This document shows, in pieces, positions 51,987 through 60,766 of a stretch of DNA of 64,000 nucleotides. Made by a program: the position numbers and the translations under genes. The stretch is taken from positions 310,001-374,000 of the forward strand of contig NZ_LT629793.1 in the NCBI RefSeq assembly GCF_900105735.1. The letters are read 5' to 3'. Source of the DNA: Pseudomonas yamanorum. GTDB taxonomy: Bacteria > Pseudomonadota > Gammaproteobacteria > Pseudomonadales > Pseudomonadaceae. How positions within the stretch are numbered: the first letter of the stretch is position 1; every line of letters starts with the position of its first letter. The notes beneath the pieces were generated by a model, which had not been told where the DNA came from, did no database searches, and saw nothing but the letters and a program-made list of their open reading frames with translations.

Positions 51987-52121
51987 TCTGGTCTTGCGCG
52001 GCAGGGCCTGTGACAGAACGTCGCAGATTACGCCCAGAGGCCCAGGTTGTTAGAATGCCACGCTCTCCTCGCCTGATTTAACGCTTCGTGGTACCCAGGC
52101 GCTTCACAGGATGCACAGTTG

Positions 52122-52727
52122 ATGAGTACGTTATTCACCCGCCGCAAAGTCCTCTCCGGCATGGGATTGCTGGGCCTGGGCCTGCTGGCCGGCTGTGACA
52201 ACAGCCCGAAACTGAACTTCAAGTACGGCAAGGATCTGAGCGACAAGATCATGGGCCGTACCTTCAAGCTCAAGAACACAGATGGCGAAACCGTCACCTT
52301 GAGTTCCTTCCGCGGCTTGATGCCGGTGGTGTTCTTCGGCTTCACCCAGTGCCCCGCCGTATGCCCGACCACCCTGGCGCGCATGGCCCAGGCGAAAAAA
52401 CTGATGGGCCGCGACGGCAAGATCATGCAGGTGGTATTTATCACCCTCGATCCCGAACGCGACACGCCCAAGATACTCGACGCCTACGTCAAGGCCTTCG
52501 ACCCGAGTTTTGAAGCGCTGTACGGCACCCCGGAAGAAATCGCCGTGGCCGCCAAGGAATTCGGGATCTTTTATGAAAAGATCCCCGCCGGCGACAGCTA
52601 CACCCTCTCCCACACCGCCACCAGCTTTGTGTTCGACACCCGAGGCACCTTGCGCCTGGGCCTGTCTGCCTCGCTTAACGCCAAAGAGTGCGCAGAAGAC
52701 CTGCTCACCGTCATGGAGGTCTGCTAA
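52122..52727 (+). CDS. SCO1/SenC-family copper protein
   Basis: A 201-residue thioredoxin-fold lipoprotein. The signal carries GLLAGCDNS (lipobox LLAGC). The copper site is FTQCPAVCPTT (CxxxC), with the His in TLSHTATSF. SCO proteins deliver copper to the Cu-A site of cytochrome oxidase or act as periplasmic thiol reductases. The ATG at 52122 follows a TTG at 52119. Its stop overlaps the next start (TAATG), so it is coupled to PCuAC. Confidence 0.92.
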   Translation: MSTLFTRRKVLSGMGLLGLGLLAGCDNSPKLNFKYGKDLSDKIMGRTFKLKNTDGETVTLSSFRGLMPVVFFGFTQCPAVCPTTLARMAQAKKLMGRDGKIMQVVFITLDPERDTPKILDAYVKAFDPSFEALYGTPEEIAVAAKEFGIFYEKIPAGDSYTLSHTATSFVFDTRGTLRLGLSASLNAKECAEDLLTVMEVC

Positions 52728-53203
52728 TGACTGCCGTTCAACACCTCAAACGCTTCGCCCTCGGTCTTTCCCTGCTGGGCCTCGCCGCACACGCCAGTGC
52801 ACAGGCGGTGGTCAGCGACGCCTGGGTACGCGCCTCGGTACCGGGCCAGCCGTCCAGCGGTGCGTTCATGACCGTCACCGCCGACAGCGACAGCAAACTG
52901 CTCAGCGTGGCGTCGCCGGTCGCCAAAACCGTGCAGATCCATGAGATGACCATGAAGGACGACGTGATGCGCATGGGCCCGGTGGACTCGGTGCCGTTGC
53001 CTGCCGGCAAGGCCGTCAAGCTCGACCCGGATGGCTATCACGTGATGCTGATCGACCTCACCGCCCAGATCAAGGAAGGCGACCAGGTGCCGCTGACCGT
53101 CACCGTGGAAAATGCCAAGGGCGAAAAGCAGTCGATCGAAGTGAAGGCTGAGGCCCGCGCGTTGAATGCAACGGAAACCATGGACCACAGCAAGATGCAC
53201 TAA
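52727..53203 (+). CDS. Periplasmic copper chaperone, PCuAC family
   Basis: A 158-residue exported chaperone. After the signal (LGLSLLGLAAHASAQ|A) comes AWVRASVPGQPSSGAFMTV and the copper motif HEMTMKDDVMRMGPVD...GYHVMLIDL, the H-x-M / M-x21-H-x-M set of the family. It passes Cu(I) for oxidase assembly together with SCO1. The C-terminus ETMDHSKMH may bind another metal. The start is within TAATG. Confidence 0.92.
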   Translation: MTAVQHLKRFALGLSLLGLAAHASAQAVVSDAWVRASVPGQPSSGAFMTVTADSDSKLLSVASPVAKTVQIHEMTMKDDVMRMGPVDSVPLPAGKAVKLDPDGYHVMLIDLTAQIKEGDQVPLTVTVENAKGEKQSIEVKAEARALNATETMDHSKMH

Positions 53204-53217
53204 AGCGCAGATCAAAA

Positions 53218-53323
53218 TGTGGGAGCGGGCTTGTGTGGGAGCGGGCTTGCTCGCGAATGCGGTGTGACAGTCACCGGATGTATTGACTGATCCACCGCTT
53301 TCGCGAGCAAGCCCGCTCCCACA
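53218..53323. repeat. REP-type palindrome with a duplicated left arm
   Basis: The left arm tgtgggagcgggcttgctcg... (53234-53256) pairs with 53301-53323 over 23 bp. Just before it, tgtgggagcgggcttg (53218-53233) repeats the first 16 bp in tandem. It lies between the PCuAC and porin genes; the remaining gap to 53505 is AT-rich and probably the porin promoter. Confidence 0.85.
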
Positions 53324-53504
53324 TTGGCCCTTCAGTGTCTGAAAAATCGGGCGTCCGCTTCATACTTTTTTCGTCTCGTCTCAACACTTTCTATATATTT
53401 TCAATCTGCAAAACAACTCGTTAGCCTGCGCAAGCCGGACGCGTCTCCCTGTCGCCGTCCGGCCAGATAATTCTAAAAATAAGCAGCAGACAACGGGAAT
53501 AACA

Positions 53505-54752
53505 ATGAAAAAATCCCCTATTACCCTGGGTTTGACTTCGGCCACCCTCGGTTTGACCCTCGCCTTCCCAACCTTTGCCGAAGCTGACTTTTTTGAAGAC
53601 AGCAAGGCCGACCTCGAATTTCGCAACTTCTACTTCAACAGCGATTACCGCCAGCCCAACGCGAGCCAGTCCAAACGCGATGAGTGGGCCCAAGGGCTGA
53701 TCCTCAATTACCAGTCGGGCTATACCGAAGGTTTGGTGGGATTCGGGATCGATGCCATCGGCTTGCAAGGCCTGAAACTCGACTCAAGCCCAGACCGCCA
53801 AAACACCGGCCTGCTTCCCGTCGGCGAGGATGGGGCTCCGGACAGCTACAGCCGAATGGGCGCCACCGCCAAGGCACGCATCTCCAAAAGCGTACTTAAA
53901 TTCGGCACGCTGATCCCCAAGCTGCCCACCGTACTACCCAACGACGGTCGGCTGCTGCCCCAGACCTTTCGCGGCACCCAACTGACCAGCCAGGACATCG
54001 CCGGCCTGACCTTCGACGCCGGGCGCCTGACCAGCAACACCCTGCGTAACGACAGCGGCCATGCAGACATTGAAGTCGATGGCAAAGGCATCAAGGGCGC
54101 CGTGCCCAGCGATAAATTCGACTTCGCCAGTGCCAGCTACAGCTGGACCAAAACCCTCGTCACCGGCTACCACTACGCCAACCTCGAGAACAACTACAAG
54201 CAACACATCTTCAACCTGGTCCACACCCTGCCATTGGGTGACGCCCAGTCGTTCAAGACCGACCTGCGTTACGCCGACTCCAGCAAGGAAGGCAACAGCA
54301 ACATCGACAACCAGGCCTTCGGCGCCAAGTTCACCTATAGCATCCAGGGCCACTCGTTCGGCGCCGCCTACCAGCGCATGAAAGGCACCACCGGCTTCCC
54401 CCACCTGGACGGTACCGACTCCTACCTCGTCAACTACGTGATGATCTCGCCGGACTTCGCCAACCCCGAGGAAAAGTCCTGGCAGGCCCGCTACGACTAT
54501 GACTTCGCCGCCCTCGGCATCCCCGGCCTGACCTTCATGACCCGCTACCTCAAGGGTGACAACTTCGTGCGTACCCGAACCCTGGAAGGTACCGAGTGGG
54601 AGCGCAACACCGATATCGGCTACGTGTTTCAGAGCGGCGCCCTGAAGAACCTTGAAGTGAAATGGCGCAATGGCACGTATCGCAGCAATGGCAGCGGCAG
54701 CGATATCGACCAGAACCGCTTTATCGTCAGCTACACCCTGCCCTTGCTGTGA
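53505..54752 (+). CDS. OprD-family outer-membrane porin
   Basis: A 415-residue porin. Signal peptide MKKSPITLGLTSATLGLTLA, mature start ADFFEDSKADLEFRNFYFNS, which is the OprD-family N-terminal pattern, and a barrel of alternating strands ending QNRFIVSYTLPLL. Members admit specific small molecules such as amino acids or carboxylates. It is followed by 20 bp and then by the exported lyase on the same strand, so the two are probably cotranscribed and the porin may admit the lyase's substrate. Confidence 0.92.
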   Translation: MKKSPITLGLTSATLGLTLAFPTFAEADFFEDSKADLEFRNFYFNSDYRQPNASQSKRDEWAQGLILNYQSGYTEGLVGFGIDAIGLQGLKLDSSPDRQNTGLLPVGEDGAPDSYSRMGATAKARISKSVLKFGTLIPKLPTVLPNDGRLLPQTFRGTQLTSQDIAGLTFDAGRLTSNTLRNDSGHADIEVDGKGIKGAVPSDKFDFASASYSWTKTLVTGYHYANLENNYKQHIFNLVHTLPLGDAQSFKTDLRYADSSKEGNSNIDNQAFGAKFTYSIQGHSFGAAYQRMKGTTGFPHLDGTDSYLVNYVMISPDFANPEEKSWQARYDYDFAALGIPGLTFMTRYLKGDNFVRTRTLEGTEWERNTDIGYVFQSGALKNLEVKWRNGTYRSNGSGSDIDQNRFIVSYTLPLL

Positions 54753-54772
54753 TTTTTCCCGGAGCGTTGCAC

Positions 54773-56383
54773 ATGAATAACAAAAAAAGCCTGATCCACC
54801 TGGCCGTCGCCTTTGCCCTGTTGAGCAGTTACGGCGCCTACGCCGCCGACACCGGCGCGTTGCCCTGCAAAACCACCGAAGAATGCGCGGCCCAGGCGGC
54901 CAAAGTCGGGGCCACGCCGGGCTCCTCGCAAAGCGCCCACAAGGCCAAGGGCGACCCGACCCAAACCCAGTTCGCCTGGCTGAACCGCATCAACAAAGCC
55001 TCGATCGTGATGCTCACCGAAGAAGGCATCGTCAAGCCGGACATGGGCCACAAGATCGCCGGCGGCGTGCGCTTTGCCATCGACCAGGCCGACCAGCCCG
55101 ATGGCAAGCGCCCGGAAGACGTGCTGCAACTGGAAAAAATCATGACCGACAAGATCGGTCCGGAAGCCTCCCTGATCCACTCCGGCCGCAGCCGCCAGGA
55201 CATGCTCGCCACCTACCGCCTGGCCAAACTGCGCTCCCAGGTGCTGGCCTACAGCGACGCACTGAACGCCACCCGCCAACGTATCCTGAATATCGCCGAC
55301 AAGAACATCGACACCCTGGTACCCGCCTACACCAACGGCGTGCAGGCCATGCCCATCAGCTATGCGCACTACCTGCTGGCGTTCGAAGCCGCATTTGATC
55401 GCGACGGCCAGCGCATTCGTGAACTCTATACCCGCCTCAACCTGAGCCCGATGGGCACCGCGGTACTGGCGAACTCCGCTTACCCGCTGAACCGCGAACG
55501 CCTGGCCGAGTTGCTGGGGTTCGACGGCGTGCGGGAAAACTCCCTGGATTCGAGCCAGGTGTCGACCTACGACATTCCGATCGAGGCGGCCAACCTGGCG
55601 GCGTCTTCGGCGATCCGTATCGGTGCGATGATTGGCGATATCCATACCCAGTACCATCAGATCCGCCCTTGGCTGCTGCTGGACGAAGAGTCCACCTACA
55701 CCAGCAGCGCGATGCCACAAAAGCGCAACCCGGGGTTGTTGATGCGCACCCGGGAATCGGCCTCGGATGTGGTCGGCCTGGCGCAGACCGTGACGTTGCG
55801 CGCGCACAACGTCACCACCGGCATGACCGACTACAAGTTCGCGTTTGATTCACTGGGGCTGTTCCAGTCCACCGATGACATGTTCAAAAGCATGGATGCC
55901 GTGCTGGATGCGCTGCAGATCAACCCGCAGCGTGCGCTGGATGAGCTGGAGTCGGAGTGGACCACTTCGATGGAGTTGGCCGACACCCTGGAGCGTCAGT
56001 TCAAGGTGCCGTTCCGCATTGGTCACAGCTTCGCGTCGCTGATCGTCACCGAGGCGCGCAGCAACGGCACCACGCCAAAGACCTTCCCGTATGCAGACGC
56101 GCAGAAGCTGTACACCCAGGCGGCGGACAAATACAAATGGACGCCGAACACCTTGCCGCTGGATGAGGCGGGTTTCCGCGCGGCGCTGTCGCCGACGACG
56201 ATGGTCAAGACCCGTAAAGGCACGGGTGGGCCGCAGCCGGAAGAGGTCAAGCGGATGTTGGTAGAAGCGCGGAAGAATCTCGACGCGGACCAGAGTTGGT
56301 TGAAGGAGCGTCGTGAGAAGCTGAAAGGTGCTGAGGGCAATCTGGACAAGGCCTTCGACAAGTTGCTCAACGCCAAGGGCTGA
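54773..56383 (+). CDS. Exported argininosuccinate-lyase-superfamily enzyme
   Basis: A 536-residue member of the fumarase/aspartase superfamily closest to argininosuccinate lyase, but carrying an N-terminal signal peptide (SLIHLAVAFALLSSYGAYA, cleavage near residue 24), so it should be periplasmic. The superfamily signature SSAMPQKRNPG is at 311-321 and SGRSRQD at 137-143. Where argininosuccinate lyase has THLQxAQP, this protein has TNGVQAMP (187-194), replacing the conserved His. Cys32 and Cys38 after the signal could form a disulphide. The reaction is expected to be beta-elimination of a fumarate-containing adduct, but the substrate is unknown. The ATG at 54773 follows GGAG; an in-frame upstream extension lies inside the porin gene. 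Confidence 0.85.
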   Translation: MNNKKSLIHLAVAFALLSSYGAYAADTGALPCKTTEECAAQAAKVGATPGSSQSAHKAKGDPTQTQFAWLNRINKASIVMLTEEGIVKPDMGHKIAGGVRFAIDQADQPDGKRPEDVLQLEKIMTDKIGPEASLIHSGRSRQDMLATYRLAKLRSQVLAYSDALNATRQRILNIADKNIDTLVPAYTNGVQAMPISYAHYLLAFEAAFDRDGQRIRELYTRLNLSPMGTAVLANSAYPLNRERLAELLGFDGVRENSLDSSQVSTYDIPIEAANLAASSAIRIGAMIGDIHTQYHQIRPWLLLDEESTYTSSAMPQKRNPGLLMRTRESASDVVGLAQTVTLRAHNVTTGMTDYKFAFDSLGLFQSTDDMFKSMDAVLDALQINPQRALDELESEWTTSMELADTLERQFKVPFRIGHSFASLIVTEARSNGTTPKTFPYADAQKLYTQAADKYKWTPNTLPLDEAGFRAALSPTTMVKTRKGTGGPQPEEVKRMLVEARKNLDADQSWLKERREKLKGAEGNLDKAFDKLLNAKG

Positions 56384-56396
56384 AATGCAATCTGAA

Positions 56397-56486
56397 TGTG
56401 GGAGCGGGCTTGCTCGCGAAGGCGGTGTATCGGTTAGCAGATTTATTGGCTGACCCACCGCATTCGCGAGCAAGCCCGCTCCCACA
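56397..56486. repeat. REP-type palindrome
   Basis: Perfect 23-bp arms (56397-56419 with 56464-56486, tgtgggagcgggcttgctcg...) separated by 44 bp. It lies between the convergent lyase and symporter genes and may end both transcripts. Confidence 0.88.
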
Positions 56487-56521
56487 TTTGACCGAGTTTT
56501 GGCTTGGAAAGTGTGCTCGGC

Positions 56522-57754
56522 TCAGTGACTCAATTCCCGCTTCAACACCTCGCGATCAATCGACTTCTGCCACCCGCATATCGCCAGGCACGCCACACAA
56601 TTGCCCAACACATTGGTCAACGACCGACACTTCATCAGCCGCTCCACTCCCAACAACAACCCCACCCCTTCCAGCGGCACCAGTTGCAGGATGTTCAAGG
56701 TGGCAATCAGGGTAAACAGCGCCGAGCCCGCCACACTGGTAGACCCCAGCGAAGTGAACAGGCAGATGACCAGCACCGCCAGCAATTCGGGAACGGCAAT
56801 TTCCACCCCGGCCAGATGCGCCAGAAACATGATGGCGGTGGTCAGGTAAATATTGGTGCCGGCCAAGTTGAACGTATAGCCGGTGGTCAGCACCAACCGT
56901 ACTAACTGGCGATCACAGCCCAGCGCTTCAAGTTTGCTGACACAACCGGGAAGTGCTGCCACTGATGAGCCGGTAAACGTCACCAACAACAACTCTTCTT
57001 TTAAATAAATAATTAACCGAGTCAATTTAACGCCGACCAGGCGCGCAATCGTCGCAAACACTAAAATCACGAAAACCGCGCACGCCAGGTAAATCACCAC
57101 AATAAACTTCAACAGCGGTAAAACAGAACTTAAACCGTACTTCCCCACCACAAACGCCATCGCCCCAAAAGCCGCCAGCGGTGCAAATTTCAAGATAAAG
57201 CGCAATAGCAAGAACAGCCCGGCGACTGCTGCTTCCAACCAGCCGAGGCAGCGGTTGCCAACCTTGCCGCCACGCCCCAGCACCAGCCCGCACAGCACCG
57301 CCACCAGCATCACCTGAAGTACCAGACTCTGGGTAAAAACCCTGTAAAGACTGGATGAAATCGACGTCATGGACAGCTCATGCAGGAGCGCCTCCGGCGC
57401 AACAGGCGGCGTCAGGGGGTCAAAATCCAGGTTAGCCACTGCCGTGTGATCCAGGCTGAACAGCCACCCCGTCGACATTCCCAACACCAATGCGGCAAGG
57501 GACATCAGCTGGAAATACACCACGATGCGCCCGACTACATGCCGATGCTGAGGCTCGCGCTTGATACCCGCCACACCCGTTGACACCAACACAAACAACA
57601 GAAACGGCATCAGTAACCCGACCACTTTTATAAAAGCGTCGCTGAGCAGTTTCATTTCAACCGCCACGCCTGGATAAAACAGTCCCAACACCATACCAAG
57701 TGCAATGGCAATCAAAATAGGCAATGTGGCGTTATTGGAAAATCGGGATGACAT
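56522..57754 (-). CDS. Dicarboxylate/amino acid:cation symporter (DAACS, DctA/GltP type)
   Basis: A 410-residue inner-membrane symporter. The substrate-binding hairpin is TGSSVAALPGCV (the S-S-x-x-x-L-P motif of the family), and TGYTFNLAGTNIYLTTAIMF plus GNCVACLAI give the second transport motif. Members carry C4-dicarboxylates, aspartate or glutamate with Na+ or H+. GGAG before the ATG at 57754 sets the start. It is divergent from the LysR regulator at 57873 and convergent with the lyase across the REP palindrome, fitting uptake of a fumarate-like product. Confidence 0.9.
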   Translation of the reverse strand: MSSRFSNNATLPILIAIALGMVLGLFYPGVAVEMKLLSDAFIKVVGLLMPFLLFVLVSTGVAGIKREPQHRHVVGRIVVYFQLMSLAALVLGMSTGWLFSLDHTAVANLDFDPLTPPVAPEALLHELSMTSISSSLYRVFTQSLVLQVMLVAVLCGLVLGRGGKVGNRCLGWLEAAVAGLFLLLRFILKFAPLAAFGAMAFVVGKYGLSSVLPLLKFIVVIYLACAVFVILVFATIARLVGVKLTRLIIYLKEELLLVTFTGSSVAALPGCVSKLEALGCDRQLVRLVLTTGYTFNLAGTNIYLTTAIMFLAHLAGVEIAVPELLAVLVICLFTSLGSTSVAGSALFTLIATLNILQLVPLEGVGLLLGVERLMKCRSLTNVLGNCVACLAICGWQKSIDREVLKRELSH

Positions 57755-57872
57755 CAATGCTCCAGGGTCTTTTTATTTATTGTTATTGTCGGATCAGGCC
57801 ACTTTCGGCATATTGGTCGCCAAGGCGCATTCTGGCCACAAATAATAAAGTCTTGTCACGGGATATACCACC

Positions 57873-58787
57873 ATGGAACTTCGCCATTTACGTTATTTCA
57901 TCATGGTGGCCGAAGAGCGACATTTCACCCGCGCTGCCGCCCGCCTGAACATGCAGCAGCCGCCCCTCAGCCAACAGATTCGTGCCCTCGAACAAGAGCT
58001 GGGATTCGACCTGTTCAAGCGCCACCCCAAGGGCGTCGACCTGACCGCCGGTGGGATGGTGTTTCTCGAAGAGGCTCGGGCCATCCTCGCCCGCGTCGAA
58101 CAAGGCTCCCTCAAGGCCGCCCGCGCCGCTCAAGGCATCGAGGGCACGCTGATCATCGCCTTCACCAGCTCCGCGGCTGCCCATCCGCTGATCCCGCGGA
58201 TCATTCGCGCCTACCGCGAGCACTACCCGGGCGTGGAACTCTCGATCAACGAAGGCAGCGCCCGGGAAGTCACCGAAGACACCATCGAAAAACGCATCGA
58301 CATCGGCATCCTCCGCGCCCCGGTCGGCGACCACCAAAGCCTGACCTTCCACCGCCTGCTCAACGAAGAAATGCTGCTGACCCTGCCCGTTGGCCACCCG
58401 CTGCTCAAGGGCCCCGAGCCAAAAATCACCATGACTGACCTCAAGGACGAACGCTTCATCCTCGTCCGCCGCCCCGGCGCGCCGGGGATGTACGCCAACC
58501 TGATCAAGGCCTGCCAGAACGCCGGCTTCGAGCCGAAGATCGCCTTTGAAGTGGAGCGCATGCTGACCAACGTCAGCCTGGTGGCCGCGGGTGAAGGCAT
58601 CTCCGTGGTGCCCGCATCGATGCGCGATGTGCACCGCGAGAGCGTGGTGTATTGCCGGATCAGCGATGCACGGCCACGATTATTGGCGCCGATCACCTTG
58701 GTGCGGCGCACGTTCAATCCGTCGACGCCGTTGCAGAATTTCATTGGGCTGGCGCGGGAGTTGGCGGGGGTTTATCGCAAGGGTTGA
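57873..58787 (+). CDS. LysR-family transcriptional regulator
   Basis: A 304-residue LTTR beginning MELRHLRYFIMVAEERHFTR, HTH AAARLNMQQPPLSQQIRALE. The effector domain includes TLIIAFTSSAAAHPLIPRII and GPEPKITMTDLKDERFILVR. The strict CbbR/CatR-type N-terminus suggests control of an acid-catabolism gene set. It is divergent from the symporter (119 bp apart) and probably its regulator, perhaps also of the porin/lyase pair. Its 3' end overlaps the next LysR gene by 16 bp. Confidence 0.92.
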   Translation: MELRHLRYFIMVAEERHFTRAAARLNMQQPPLSQQIRALEQELGFDLFKRHPKGVDLTAGGMVFLEEARAILARVEQGSLKAARAAQGIEGTLIIAFTSSAAAHPLIPRIIRAYREHYPGVELSINEGSAREVTEDTIEKRIDIGILRAPVGDHQSLTFHRLLNEEMLLTLPVGHPLLKGPEPKITMTDLKDERFILVRRPGAPGMYANLIKACQNAGFEPKIAFEVERMLTNVSLVAAGEGISVVPASMRDVHRESVVYCRISDARPRLLAPITLVRRTFNPSTPLQNFIGLARELAGVYRKG

Positions 58788-59647
58788 GTCATCGCGTGAA
58801 AACTCTCGGTGAGCAGTTCCACCGCCGCGCGGATGCTGTCGCTTTGCCGTGGAACGGCGTACAGGCCGTAGTTGACACTCAAAATAGGCCCATCGCTTTC
58901 AGCCAAGGAAATGATGCGCATGGTCTCCGGCCGAATGTTCTCCGCCGGCAGCAAGGCCACACCCAGTCCACCCTCCACCGCTGCGGTGATTACGCCAATG
59001 TTCGGGCTGGTCACCGTGACCCGAAAATCCCGCCCGGCGTTCAGCAACGCATCAAACATCAAGCGCCGCCAGGCACAGGGTTCGGCATACACGATGACAT
59101 CCAGCGGCAGCGCCGCATCGATTTCTTCATCAATCGCGCACACCCAGTACAGCTCGACGTTCCAGGCGTGCACAGGGTCGGCGTTGAACGATGAGCTGAC
59201 GCCAATGGCCACATCCAGCTCGCCGTCATTCCAACGTTCGGCGAGCGCGTCGCCGTGGTCAACGACGACCTCCAGGTGCACATGCGGGCAGGCGCGCCGC
59301 AGCCGGCCGAGCGCTGCCGGCAACGCCGATACCGCCACGTCTTCCGAGAGCCCGACGCGCACATTGCCCATCACCGTGCGCTCTTTCAGGCGCGCTGCTA
59401 CCGTCTCGCCCAAGGCCAGAATGCGCGTCGCGTAGGTGAGCAGCAGTTCCCCTTCGGTAGTGGGCACCACGCCCCGACCTGTTCTGCGCAACAGCCGCTG
59501 GCCTAGCAACTCTTCAAGCCGGCGGATTTGTGCGCTGAGGGCCGATTGCGCCCTGCCCGCCTGCAGGGCTGCGCCACTCAGGCTGCCGTGCTGGCATACC
59601 GAGATAAAGGTTCGTAGCAAATAGGGTTCAAACGCGTCGGATATCAT
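58772..59647 (-). CDS. LysR-family transcriptional regulator
   Basis: A 291-residue LTTR with HTH LSGAALQAGRAQSALSAQIR and LEELLGQRLLRRTGRGVVPT. The effector domain shows GNVRVGLSEDVAVSALPAAL and GVITAAVEGGLGVALLPAEN. It is divergent from the oxidoreductase at 59741 (94 bp), its likely target. It overlaps the convergent LysR gene end by 16 bp. Confidence 0.92.
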   Translation of the reverse strand: MISDAFEPYLLRTFISVCQHGSLSGAALQAGRAQSALSAQIRRLEELLGQRLLRRTGRGVVPTTEGELLLTYATRILALGETVAARLKERTVMGNVRVGLSEDVAVSALPAALGRLRRACPHVHLEVVVDHGDALAERWNDGELDVAIGVSSSFNADPVHAWNVELYWVCAIDEEIDAALPLDVIVYAEPCAWRRLMFDALLNAGRDFRVTVTSPNIGVITAAVEGGLGVALLPAENIRPETMRIISLAESDGPILSVNYGLYAVPRQSDSIRAAVELLTESFHAMTQPLR

Positions 59648-59740
59648 GTTTGGATTAACTCTGAATCAACAGCTATCACCCTACCTCGATAGCTGGAGCA
59701 TGACTACTCTGCTGGAACGTTATCAACCAGGAAGAGCCTC

Positions 59741-60766
59741 ATGACCCAACTCCAGAACCAACGCATCGTACTGGCAGCCCGCCCCGACGGGCGCCCGCAA
59801 CCCAGCGATTTTCGCGTGGAGTACAGCGCGATTCCCGTGCCTGCCGAAGGCGAAGTGTTGCTTGAGAACCTCTATCTGTCCCTCGACCCCTACATGCGCT
59901 GGCGCATGAGTGCAGCCAAATCCTATGCCGAGCCAGTGGGCATCGGCGAGGTGATGGTGGGCGGCACGGTCGCGCGGATCAAACACTCACGAAACCCATT
60001 GTGGCAAGAGGGCGACATGGTGCTTGCCTATGCCGGCTGGCAGCGTTTTGCGCTCTCGGACGGTCTCGATCTGCGGCTTCTGGATCCGGGCATGGCCCAC
60101 CCCAGCACAGCGCTGGGAGTTCTTGGAATGCCGGGGTTCACCGCTTACTCGGGGTTGCTCACTATCGGCCAACCCAAGCCCGGTGACACCGTGGTAGTGG
60201 CGGCGGCGAGTGGCGCAGTGGGCTCGGTGGTCGGCCAGATCGCCCGCATCAAGGGCGCACGCGCCGTGGGTATCGCGGGCGGGCCGGAGAAATGCGCGTT
60301 CGTGAAAAATGAACTCGGGTTTGATGCCGTCATCGACCATCGCGCAGCGGATTTTGCCCAGCAGTTGGCCGAAGCCTGCCCCAATGGAATTGACGTTTAC
60401 TTCGAAAATGTCTCGGGGGCGGTTTGGGATGCCGTGAGGCCGCTGCTCAATGACTTTGCGCGGATACCCGTATGTGGGTTGATCGCCCATTACAACGACA
60501 GCTCGGTGCCTGGGCAACAGGTCGACCGACTGCCGGCGACTATGCACGACATCCTCGCCAAGAGCCTCACCGTGCGCGGCTTTATCCAGACCGAGTTCGT
60601 TGACGAGCAGCAGGACGACTTTTTGCAGGAAGCCGCGCAGTGGATTGATCAGGGCAAGCTGAAGTGGCGCGAAGACATTGTCGAGGGCCTTGAGAATGCG
60701 CCTGAGGCGTTTATCGGGCAGCTGGAGGGGCGCAACTTCGGCAAGTTGATTGTGCGACTGGCTTGA
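59741..60766 (+). CDS. NADP-dependent oxidoreductase (CurA/MDR type)
   Basis: A 341-residue medium-chain reductase of the leukotriene B4 12-hydroxydehydrogenase/CurA group. Marks: ENLYLSLDPYMRWRMSAAKS near the N-terminus, VVVAAASGAVGSVVGQIARI (nucleotide loop), KGARAVGIAGGPEKCAFVKN and YFENVSGAVWDAV. These enzymes reduce activated double bonds of enones with NADPH. It is divergent from the LysR at 58772 and convergent with the DHCW cupin (5 bp). Confidence 0.92.
   Translation: MTQLQNQRIVLAARPDGRPQPSDFRVEYSAIPVPAEGEVLLENLYLSLDPYMRWRMSAAKSYAEPVGIGEVMVGGTVARIKHSRNPLWQEGDMVLAYAGWQRFALSDGLDLRLLDPGMAHPSTALGVLGMPGFTAYSGLLTIGQPKPGDTVVVAAASGAVGSVVGQIARIKGARAVGIAGGPEKCAFVKNELGFDAVIDHRAADFAQQLAEACPNGIDVYFENVSGAVWDAVRPLLNDFARIPVCGLIAHYNDSSVPGQQVDRLPATMHDILAKSLTVRGFIQTEFVDEQQDDFLQEAAQWIDQGKLKWREDIVEGLENAPEAFIGQLEGRNFGKLIVRLA

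Follow-up and report, generated by a model that had tools for sequence, protein, structure and literature searches.

Why would an enzyme of the aspartase/fumarase superfamily carry an export signal, and what could it cleave outside the cytoplasm? This question is raised by four adjoining genes at positions 53505 to 58787 of a 64,000-nucleotide stretch of Pseudomonas yamanorum DNA (contig NZ_LT629793.1, positions 310,001 to 374,000; the whole stretch is referred to as the window), encoding an OprD-type porin, a lyase with a predicted signal peptide, an SDF symporter and a LysR-family regulator. Sequence comparisons indicate that the lyase belongs to a branch of the fumarate-lyase superfamily that evolved separately, is predicted to be exported and has a regulatory element and a symporter clade of its own. 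With a probability of about 0.6, the genes would form a LysR-controlled scavenging cassette, in which a 2-substituted succinate is cleaved in the periplasm and the fumarate is taken up.

Organization of the gene set

The genes occur in the order porin (+), lyase (+), symporter (-) and LysR (+) in a host genome consisting of a single contig of 7.09 Mb, the symporter gene being convergent with that of the lyase and divergent from that of the regulator. An earlier note, made from the DNA letters alone, had described an OprD-type porin, a lyase with a signal peptide, a DAACS symporter and a divergent LysR in this order; all four open reading frames (ORFs) and their Pfam families are confirmed, with matches that exceed the curated cut-offs. 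The porin (53505..54752, + strand, 415 amino acids) scores 501.7 bits against the OprD profile (cut-off 25), and its best solved relatives are the porin 3t24 and OpdH (2y0l), followed by 4frt. The gene for the lyase (54773..56383, + strand, 536 amino acids, signal peptide predicted at approximately residues 1-24) starts at 54773; the mechanical ORF list puts the start at 54662, inside the porin gene. The symporter (56522..57757, - strand) reaches 215.6 bits against the SDF (DAACS) profile (cut-off 27.9) and falls in a lyase-linked clade beside DctA. The regulator (57873..58787, + strand) matches the LysR_substrate (142.6 bits) and HTH_1 (82.4 bits) profiles, and its nearest NCBIfam model is AlsR, with a score below the cut-off.

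A family predicted to be exported, with its own active site

The N-terminus of the lyase, MNNKKSLIHLAVAFALLSSYGAYA-ADTG, has by inspection the form of a Sec/signal peptidase I type signal. Export was also scored by a crude test of charge, hydrophobic core (at least 1.6) and AxA-like cleavage site; 112 of 121 close sequences passed, and under a laxer version all 31 more distant relatives considered (subfamilies Ib and II, below) were signal-like. The hydrophobic-core scores of the ArgH and the paralogue encoded in the same genome are 1.37 and 0.95, against the 1.6 required. An N-terminal cysteine pair accompanies the signal in the close sequences (C32 in 121/121, C38 in 120/121) and would fit a disulfide in an oxidising compartment. 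By prediction, then, the lyase is exported, as the earlier note had claimed. A published list for Achromobacter xylosoxidans credits three proteins named argininosuccinate lyase (A0A0D6FWL1, A0A0D6I447 and A0A0D6IQY6), possible relatives of the present lyase, with expression in the periplasm and with predicted Tat export (PMC11533796). No open-access paper treating the exported family as such was found among those listed, and argininosuccinate was not among the words found in PMC6370202; a search of the open literature for the fumarase superfamily together with periplasm and signal peptide gave, among the papers listed, only the Achromobacter paper with all three, where the mention is a reference title.

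Membership of the superfamily is clear from the Pfam profiles Lyase_1 (85.7 bits, cut-off 27) and ASL_C2 (28.6 bits). The top NCBIfam model is argH (TIGR00838), at 212 bits below its equivalog cut-off of 279.5, and the best solved relatives are chains 6g3d and 6rx8 (163 bits). The PDB names both argininosuccinate lyase, and 6G3H, of the same sequence entry, has been used as ethylenediaminedisuccinate (EDDS) lyase (PMC12363623). Three such proteins are encoded in the host genome, namely this lyase, ArgH (L002; L numbers denote loci and G numbers genomes) and the paralogue (L003). The latter, a 486-amino-acid argininosuccinate lyase-like protein at 5.11 Mb, lies beside what appear by eye to be an amino-acid ATP-binding cassette (ABC) permease and a LysR gene, and is possibly another adduct lyase.

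Active sites were compared by aligning the query and its 120 listed hits (the best 120 of 3273) with ArgH, the paralogue and the EDDS-lyase core. The SSxMPxKxNP loop carrying the catalytic serine is a motif of the superfamily; here the form SS-MPQK-NP is invariant (S311, S312, M314, P315, K317, N319 and P320 in 121/121), and its second serine, which matches EDDS-lyase position 281, is taken to be the catalytic base. The GRSR-D and YTN motifs are likewise present in 121/121 and largely retained in two further subfamilies. Where ArgH rows read GRSRND, FTHLQ and QKKNPD, the lyase reads GRSRQD, YTNGV and QKRNPG, and the ArgH motifs GFTHLQ, QKKNPD and YNKDNQEDK are absent. The residues near the substrate in EDDS lyase are R112, N113, Q159, N288, D290 and Y320 (PMC12363623). 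Only R112 and N288 are retained in the lyase; N113, Q159 and D290 are replaced by Q142, N188 and G321 in the query and all 120 hits, and the Y320 position is variable. Because these three substrate-side departures are invariant, they point to a single activity common to the family and distinct from those of both ArgH and EDDS lyase.

Three subfamilies can be told apart by signature. Subfamily I, to which this lyase belongs, has the cysteine pair (two Variovorax members are exceptional in reading KANPG); subfamily Ib reads GRSRQDI and KRNPY or KRNPS and is without the pair; and subfamily II reads GRSSQDM, NYTNGVA and HNITPGM or a near form, and has serine where EDDS lyase has R112. A tree was built from 50 chosen rows, with a long-branch warning from the program. 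In it, a branch supported at 100/100 separates 38 exported proteins, together with L221, which shows no evident signal and sits on a long branch, from ArgH, EDDS lyase, L003 and two other cytoplasmic-type lyases. EDDS lyase does not group with the exported proteins; it joins ArgH, at 88/68 only and on a long branch. In a number of Pseudomonas and Burkholderiales genomes, proteins that bear the name argininosuccinate lyase probably belong instead to this exported family, whose active site is invariant and distinct.

Distribution and gene neighborhood

Searches with the window proteins (tblastn, 80 named loci) recovered the gene set across Pseudomonas, Stutzerimonas and Azotobacter (Azotobacter vinelandii CA, locus L045, has all four genes), the closest named locus (L004, Pseudomonas yamanorum) having a lyase of 99% identity among the best 80 of 157 loci. 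Distribution of the lyase is patchy: it occurs in 26 of 298 Pseudomonas genomes (E <= 1e-150), and among 369 genomes of the class (E <= 1e-40) in the host genome only, four other matches being ArgH-like by motif. In the family to which G667 (the Candidimonas genome that contains L071) belongs, a match at E <= 1e-60 is present in 62 of 200 genomes.

To count neighbors, distinct lyase loci no shorter than 7.5 kb were taken, and a partner was scored if it lay within 6 kb. Around the 61 lyases of at least 69% identity, LysR was found 54 times, SDF 44 times and OprD 37 times. Presence of the lyase and of the symporter clade (E <= 1e-90, a threshold set after seeing a gap in the scores) was also compared across the 298 Pseudomonas genomes: 19 have both, 7 the lyase only, 3 the symporter only and 269 neither (Fisher p = 2e-21, uncorrected for ancestry and, given the shared ancestry of the genomes, too small). 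Gene linkage is beyond chance, and the co-occurrence in other genomes on which the earlier note had staked its proposal was borne out by this search across Pseudomonas. In the class below 55%, made up of 31 loci with 42-51% identity and of L221 with 36%, LysR was found five times and SDF four times; two of these symporters, those of L201 and L202 with 36-37% identity, could be ordinary DctA. Locus L074, which has a divergent LysR (51%), is under the length limit and hence outside the count for the 55-69% class given below.

Genomes departing from the common arrangement retain related parts. In two of the three symporter-only genomes, G044 and G037, a subfamily-Ib lyase with LysR stands beside the symporter. 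At these loci (L131 and L132) the Ib lyase is flanked by a large protein with a TPS domain and by one resembling HMW1C (domains as scanned in L131), and the symporter and LysR cousins are nearby. Genomes of the P. fulva type (L138) are without the symporter, and the lyase gene follows dctP, dctQ-like and dctM-like genes in one direction (dctP by profile, the others by eye). In these genomes, too, a dicarboxylate-type carrier accompanies the lyase, a tripartite ATP-independent periplasmic (TRAP) dctP operon standing directly upstream.

Other neighbors recur at a smaller number of loci, the neighbor genes listed having been called by a crude ORF picker. A secreted-looking protein of approximately 195 amino acids, with no Pfam match, follows the lyase in 7 loci, such as L032, L034 (7657-8244) and L037. 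Subfamily-II lyases in L211, L214 and L220 lie near a GntR-like regulator and an apparent dehydro-deoxyglucarate dehydratase (by eye, among the neighbors listed), a possible sugar-acid context. Among the distant loci, 16 of 31 and 11 of 32 have Bug/TctC receptors close to the lyase; since such receptors are very abundant in Burkholderiales, this link was rejected as weak.

A distinct clade of symporters

The symporter scores 335.4 bits against the DctA model NF002461, for which 513 are required. In a tree from which the fragmentary L050 copy was omitted, the 52 distinct lyase-linked symporters form one clade (100/100), apart from eight other Pseudomonas SDFs; its nearest cousins are L131/L132, followed by L133 (the program warns that L133 and the eight other SDFs are long branches). 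All 52 linked copies share a form of transmembrane segment 8 (TM8), GVER-(L/M)-(L/M)-K-C-R, that is one residue shorter than in the DctA-type proteins of the host genome, together with a TG(S/A)-type gate (HP1) motif in place of T(S/A)SS. L131, L132 and L133 have the same TM8 form, and the L131 cousin reaches 454.1 of the 513 bits. The symporter appears to have branched off from the DctA group and to have changed in specificity. Of the fumarate/aspartate-type, DctA-like importer foreseen in the earlier note, the dicarboxylate-type carrier beside the lyase stands, but by score and by motifs it is not DctA. At the cousin locus L133 (7203-18001, genome G070), the symporter and LysR genes adjoin a chemoreceptor-like protein (4HB_MCP, HAMP); approximately 6 kb from them lie antA and a regulator that resembles AndR but scores under the cut-off.

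An operator-like element upstream of the porin gene

Alignment of the sequences preceding OprD in 20 loci and the window disclosed a shared element, approximately ATAY-N7-RT(A/C)T followed by CTATATATTTTTAAT. In the window this operator-like region (53362..53405, + strand) consists of ATAC-N7-GTCT (53362-53376), which we take to resemble BenM/CatM-type LysR sites, and of CTATATATTTTCAAT (53391-53405). The second half was searched for at up to 3 mismatches, with 200 letter shuffles per locus. It precedes OprD in 35 of 36 loci (in 15 of the 16 that had played no part in its discovery) and precedes the lyase in 16 of the 20 loci without OprD; in L027 and L028 it has 4 mismatches. The first half, by the pattern set here, is found in 27 of the 36 OprD loci. 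Within the window the second half occurs only at 53391-53405, against none in 100 shuffles, and in the whole genome it occurs once at no more than 1 mismatch. Loci L065, L046 and L059, which are without a match, also show no LysR; L032 has no LysR, yet its second half matches with 3 mismatches. Together, these patterns are good, though indirect, evidence that the porin-lyase unit has a regulator of its own.

Proposed model and its alternatives

The gene set, export signal, catalytic motif, separate clade, co-occurrence and operator-like element obtained by computation can be joined in a model in which an anionic 2-substituted succinate, X-CH(COO-)CH2COO- (X being an amine or a thiol), would enter via the OprD-type porin. 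The exported lyase would eliminate X-H in the periplasm by the serine-base chemistry of the superfamily, yielding fumarate, and the dedicated SDF symporter would import the C4 acid, a task that elsewhere may fall to a TRAP carrier or (by assumption) to the resident DctA. LysR would detect the substrate or the C4 product and turn on the porin-lyase promoter. Cleavage equilibrium constants are very low for ArgH, PurB and S-(2-succino) lyase, and breakdown needs low fumarate (PMC9706529). Being strongly adduct-sided, such eliminations would run forward only where fumarate stays low; the periplasm and an ion-coupled pump could keep it so, and export would then make thermodynamic sense. It is from these elements that we infer fumarate as the product, the direction of the reaction, the roles of the symporter and LysR, and this rationale. 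The route imagined in the earlier note (external adduct through the porin, periplasmic splitting, C4 uptake) gains from the recurrence of the architecture in many genomes; the substrates that it named do not.

Several observations weigh against the scavenging model. The symporter clade is missing from 7 of the 26 lyase genomes, a porin is near just 37 of the 61 close lyases, and L011-L013 have the lyase and LysR only, so that porin and symporter are optional; conversely, G070 has the symporter clade and LysR without an exported lyase. At 55-69% lyase identity (31 loci), LysR was found once, SDF never and OprD twice (both in Pseudomonas), and away from Pseudomonadaceae the neighbors of the lyase vary. 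Most Pseudomonas loci are of common ancestry, so the counts overstate independent support. The first half of the operator-like element is kept poorly without OprD (6 of 20 loci), and searches of the window and the genome located no copy of the element ahead of the symporter gene, so that it does not account for control of the symporter. In addition, the induction data from Advenella discussed below are weak evidence of substrate.

Should a cassette of this kind nevertheless be at work, the exported group might represent, more broadly, a new enzyme family of Pseudomonadaceae and Burkholderiales that acts outside the cytoplasm to reverse the succination of thiols or amines by fumarate, a fumarate-poor periplasm and a newly specialised symporter pulling the elimination forward; this wider proposal is tentative, with a somewhat less than even chance. 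To our knowledge, and as far as the open papers searched show, no extracytoplasmic branch of the aspartase/fumarase superfamily was known earlier. If true, this would be the first, here with its own regulator; it would also explain simply why a lyase should be placed in the periplasm (keeping fumarate low), offer a way into the study of how bacteria live on succinated metabolites, and supply synthesis with new C-N or C-S lyases. With an operator-like element and a symporter belonging to the unit, the substrate question can be tested directly.

Versions of the model differ in the substrate. Thio-succinates and N-aryl-aspartates are leads, whereas EDDS and argininosuccinate, put forward in the earlier note, are supported neither by score, nor by active-site residues, nor by the tree. 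A periplasmic EDDS or argininosuccinate lyase, served by a porin admitting EDDS, iminodisuccinate or argininosuccinate, would suit the closest solved relatives (6g3d and 6rx8) and a porin near carboxylate porins such as OpdH. It is nonetheless very unlikely, given the argH score, the N113, Q159 and D290 replacements, the placing of EDDS lyase with ArgH and a genome that has its own ArgH. Thiol desuccination, which would release fumarate, along with sulfide or a thiol, from mercaptosuccinate or an S-(2-succino) thiol, is unlikely as a specific claim but draws on expression data. The Advenella protein MIM_c16970, a 'putative argininosuccinate lyase', is 6.4-fold up on mercaptosuccinate versus succinate (PMC5373536, Table 3) and 3.5-fold up versus dithiodipropionate, with DctP at 8.1-fold (PMC5373536). 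In G816, adk (tag 15800, at 1,807,034) and fah (tag 16690, at 1,910,020) give 1157 bases per tag, so that tag 16970 would be expected at about 1,942,400. The gene for the exported lyase occupies 1,942,948-1,944,486; two further superfamily genes were found, at 2.44 and 3.47 Mb. By this match of tag and position, MIM_c16970 would be the orthologue of the exported lyase. The lyase class I family also has a proven C-S lyase in S-(2-succino) lyase (PMC9706529). Against this, the Advenella authors assigned mercaptosuccinate breakdown to the dioxygenase Msdo, the porins in their table have tags other than those of the lyase's neighbors, and mercaptosuccinate also raised chaperone, protease and porin spots (PMC5373536), which is what makes the 6.4-fold rise weak evidence of substrate. 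No recurring sulfur genes were noticed by eye among the neighbors listed, no search having been aimed at them, and nothing was found in the open literature joining mercaptosuccinate, lyase, sulfide and fumarate with Pseudomonas. The splitting of N-aryl-aspartates, for instance of N-(2-carboxyphenyl)aspartate to fumarate and anthranilate, is rather improbable. We know of no natural substrate of this kind. It is suggested by one Pseudomonas lineage (L065, L141) in which the porin and lyase adjoin an AraC-type regulator gene and antABC (AntA at 944.1 bits, cut-off 671.9), by dioxygenase genes of AndAc/AndAd-like type close to the lyase gene in Verticiella (loci L052 and L056), by an arylamine N-acetyltransferase in L064, L069, L071 and L188 (Candidimonas/Paralcaligenes type) and by the ability of EDDS lyase to join aromatic amines to fumarate (PMC12363623). 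These contexts, however, amount to three lineages among 128 loci longer than 7 kb (duplicates included) and were spotted post hoc; in L052, the locus of the two that was scanned, the AndAc-like and AndAd-like proteins are both under cut-off (448.8 versus 750 and 146.1 versus 230), and comparison of the antA and porin promoters gave no convincing common motif.

Two further explanations do without the cassette. The symporter could import another product or an unrelated acid rather than the C4 product of the lyase, the genes sharing a regulator only; its TM8 and HP1 motifs, unlike those of the genome's DctA-type proteins in 52/52, and the presence in G070 of symporter and LysR without a lyase would then be accounted for. 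Yet lyase and symporter clade co-occur tightly in the 298 Pseudomonas genomes, the nearest named subfamily of the symporter is DctA (the L131 cousin scoring 454.1 of the 513 required), and a TRAP dctP operon replaces it in P. fulva-type genomes, so that this reading, though possible, is on the unlikely side. Chance neighbors or a dead enzyme are scarcely credible: each of the porin and the symporter is absent from a fraction of loci, which would fit, but the catalytic loop is intact in 121/121, the element occurs once in its own genome and ahead of the unit in most loci, the same co-occurrence speaks against chance, and the Advenella protein, if orthologous, is induced (PMC5373536). This explanation is already contradicted.

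Flanking features

REP-like palindromes lie upstream of the porin-lyase unit (53216..53330, unstranded, inverted repeats) and between the convergent lyase and symporter genes (56395..56488, unstranded, an inverted repeat of 33 nucleotides, 97% complementary). Standing on both flanks of the unit, they may mark its movement or its transcript ends. SCO1/SenC and PCu(A)C copper-chaperone genes (52119-53203) lie just upstream of the porin gene; of the 80 named loci only 10 have them beside the lyase, and these all come from near relatives; a copper link was rejected. Beyond the regulator, a second LysR gene is divergent from that of an NADPH-dependent curcumin/dihydrocurcumin reductase (58772-60766; reductase 545.8 bits, cut-off 440).

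Comparison with known systems

The EDDS lyase of Chelativorans sp. BNC1 (6g3d) is the best solved match and has the same serine loop, but it is placed with ArgH in the tree, and three of its substrate-side residues differ in the lyase studied here. No signal peptide is known to us for EDDS lyase. It makes and splits N-substituted aspartates (PMC12363623), and Chelativorans imports free aminopolycarboxylates by an ABC system (PMC7312458). ArgH (TIGR00838) shares the superfamily and domain order, and its name is borne by most of the named relatives listed; the present lyase nevertheless scores under the ArgH cut-off, is without ArgH motifs and is predicted to be exported, and the true ArgH is encoded elsewhere in the genome. 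The S-(2-succino) lyase (2SL) of Dickeya and Enterococcus is likewise of lyase class I and undoes a fumarate adduct for nutrition (PMC9706529). This likeness is drawn from its description; 2SL belongs to yxe loci with ABC import, acetylation and deacetylation genes, and the paper uses neither 'periplasm' nor 'signal peptide' (PMC9706529). The porin resembles OpdH, OpdO and others of the OprD family in being a full-length OprD match, near carboxylate porins such as OpdH. DctA (NF002461) is the nearest named subfamily of the symporter, which differs from it in scoring below the cut-off, in having one residue fewer in TM8 and an altered gate motif, and in forming a clade of its own.

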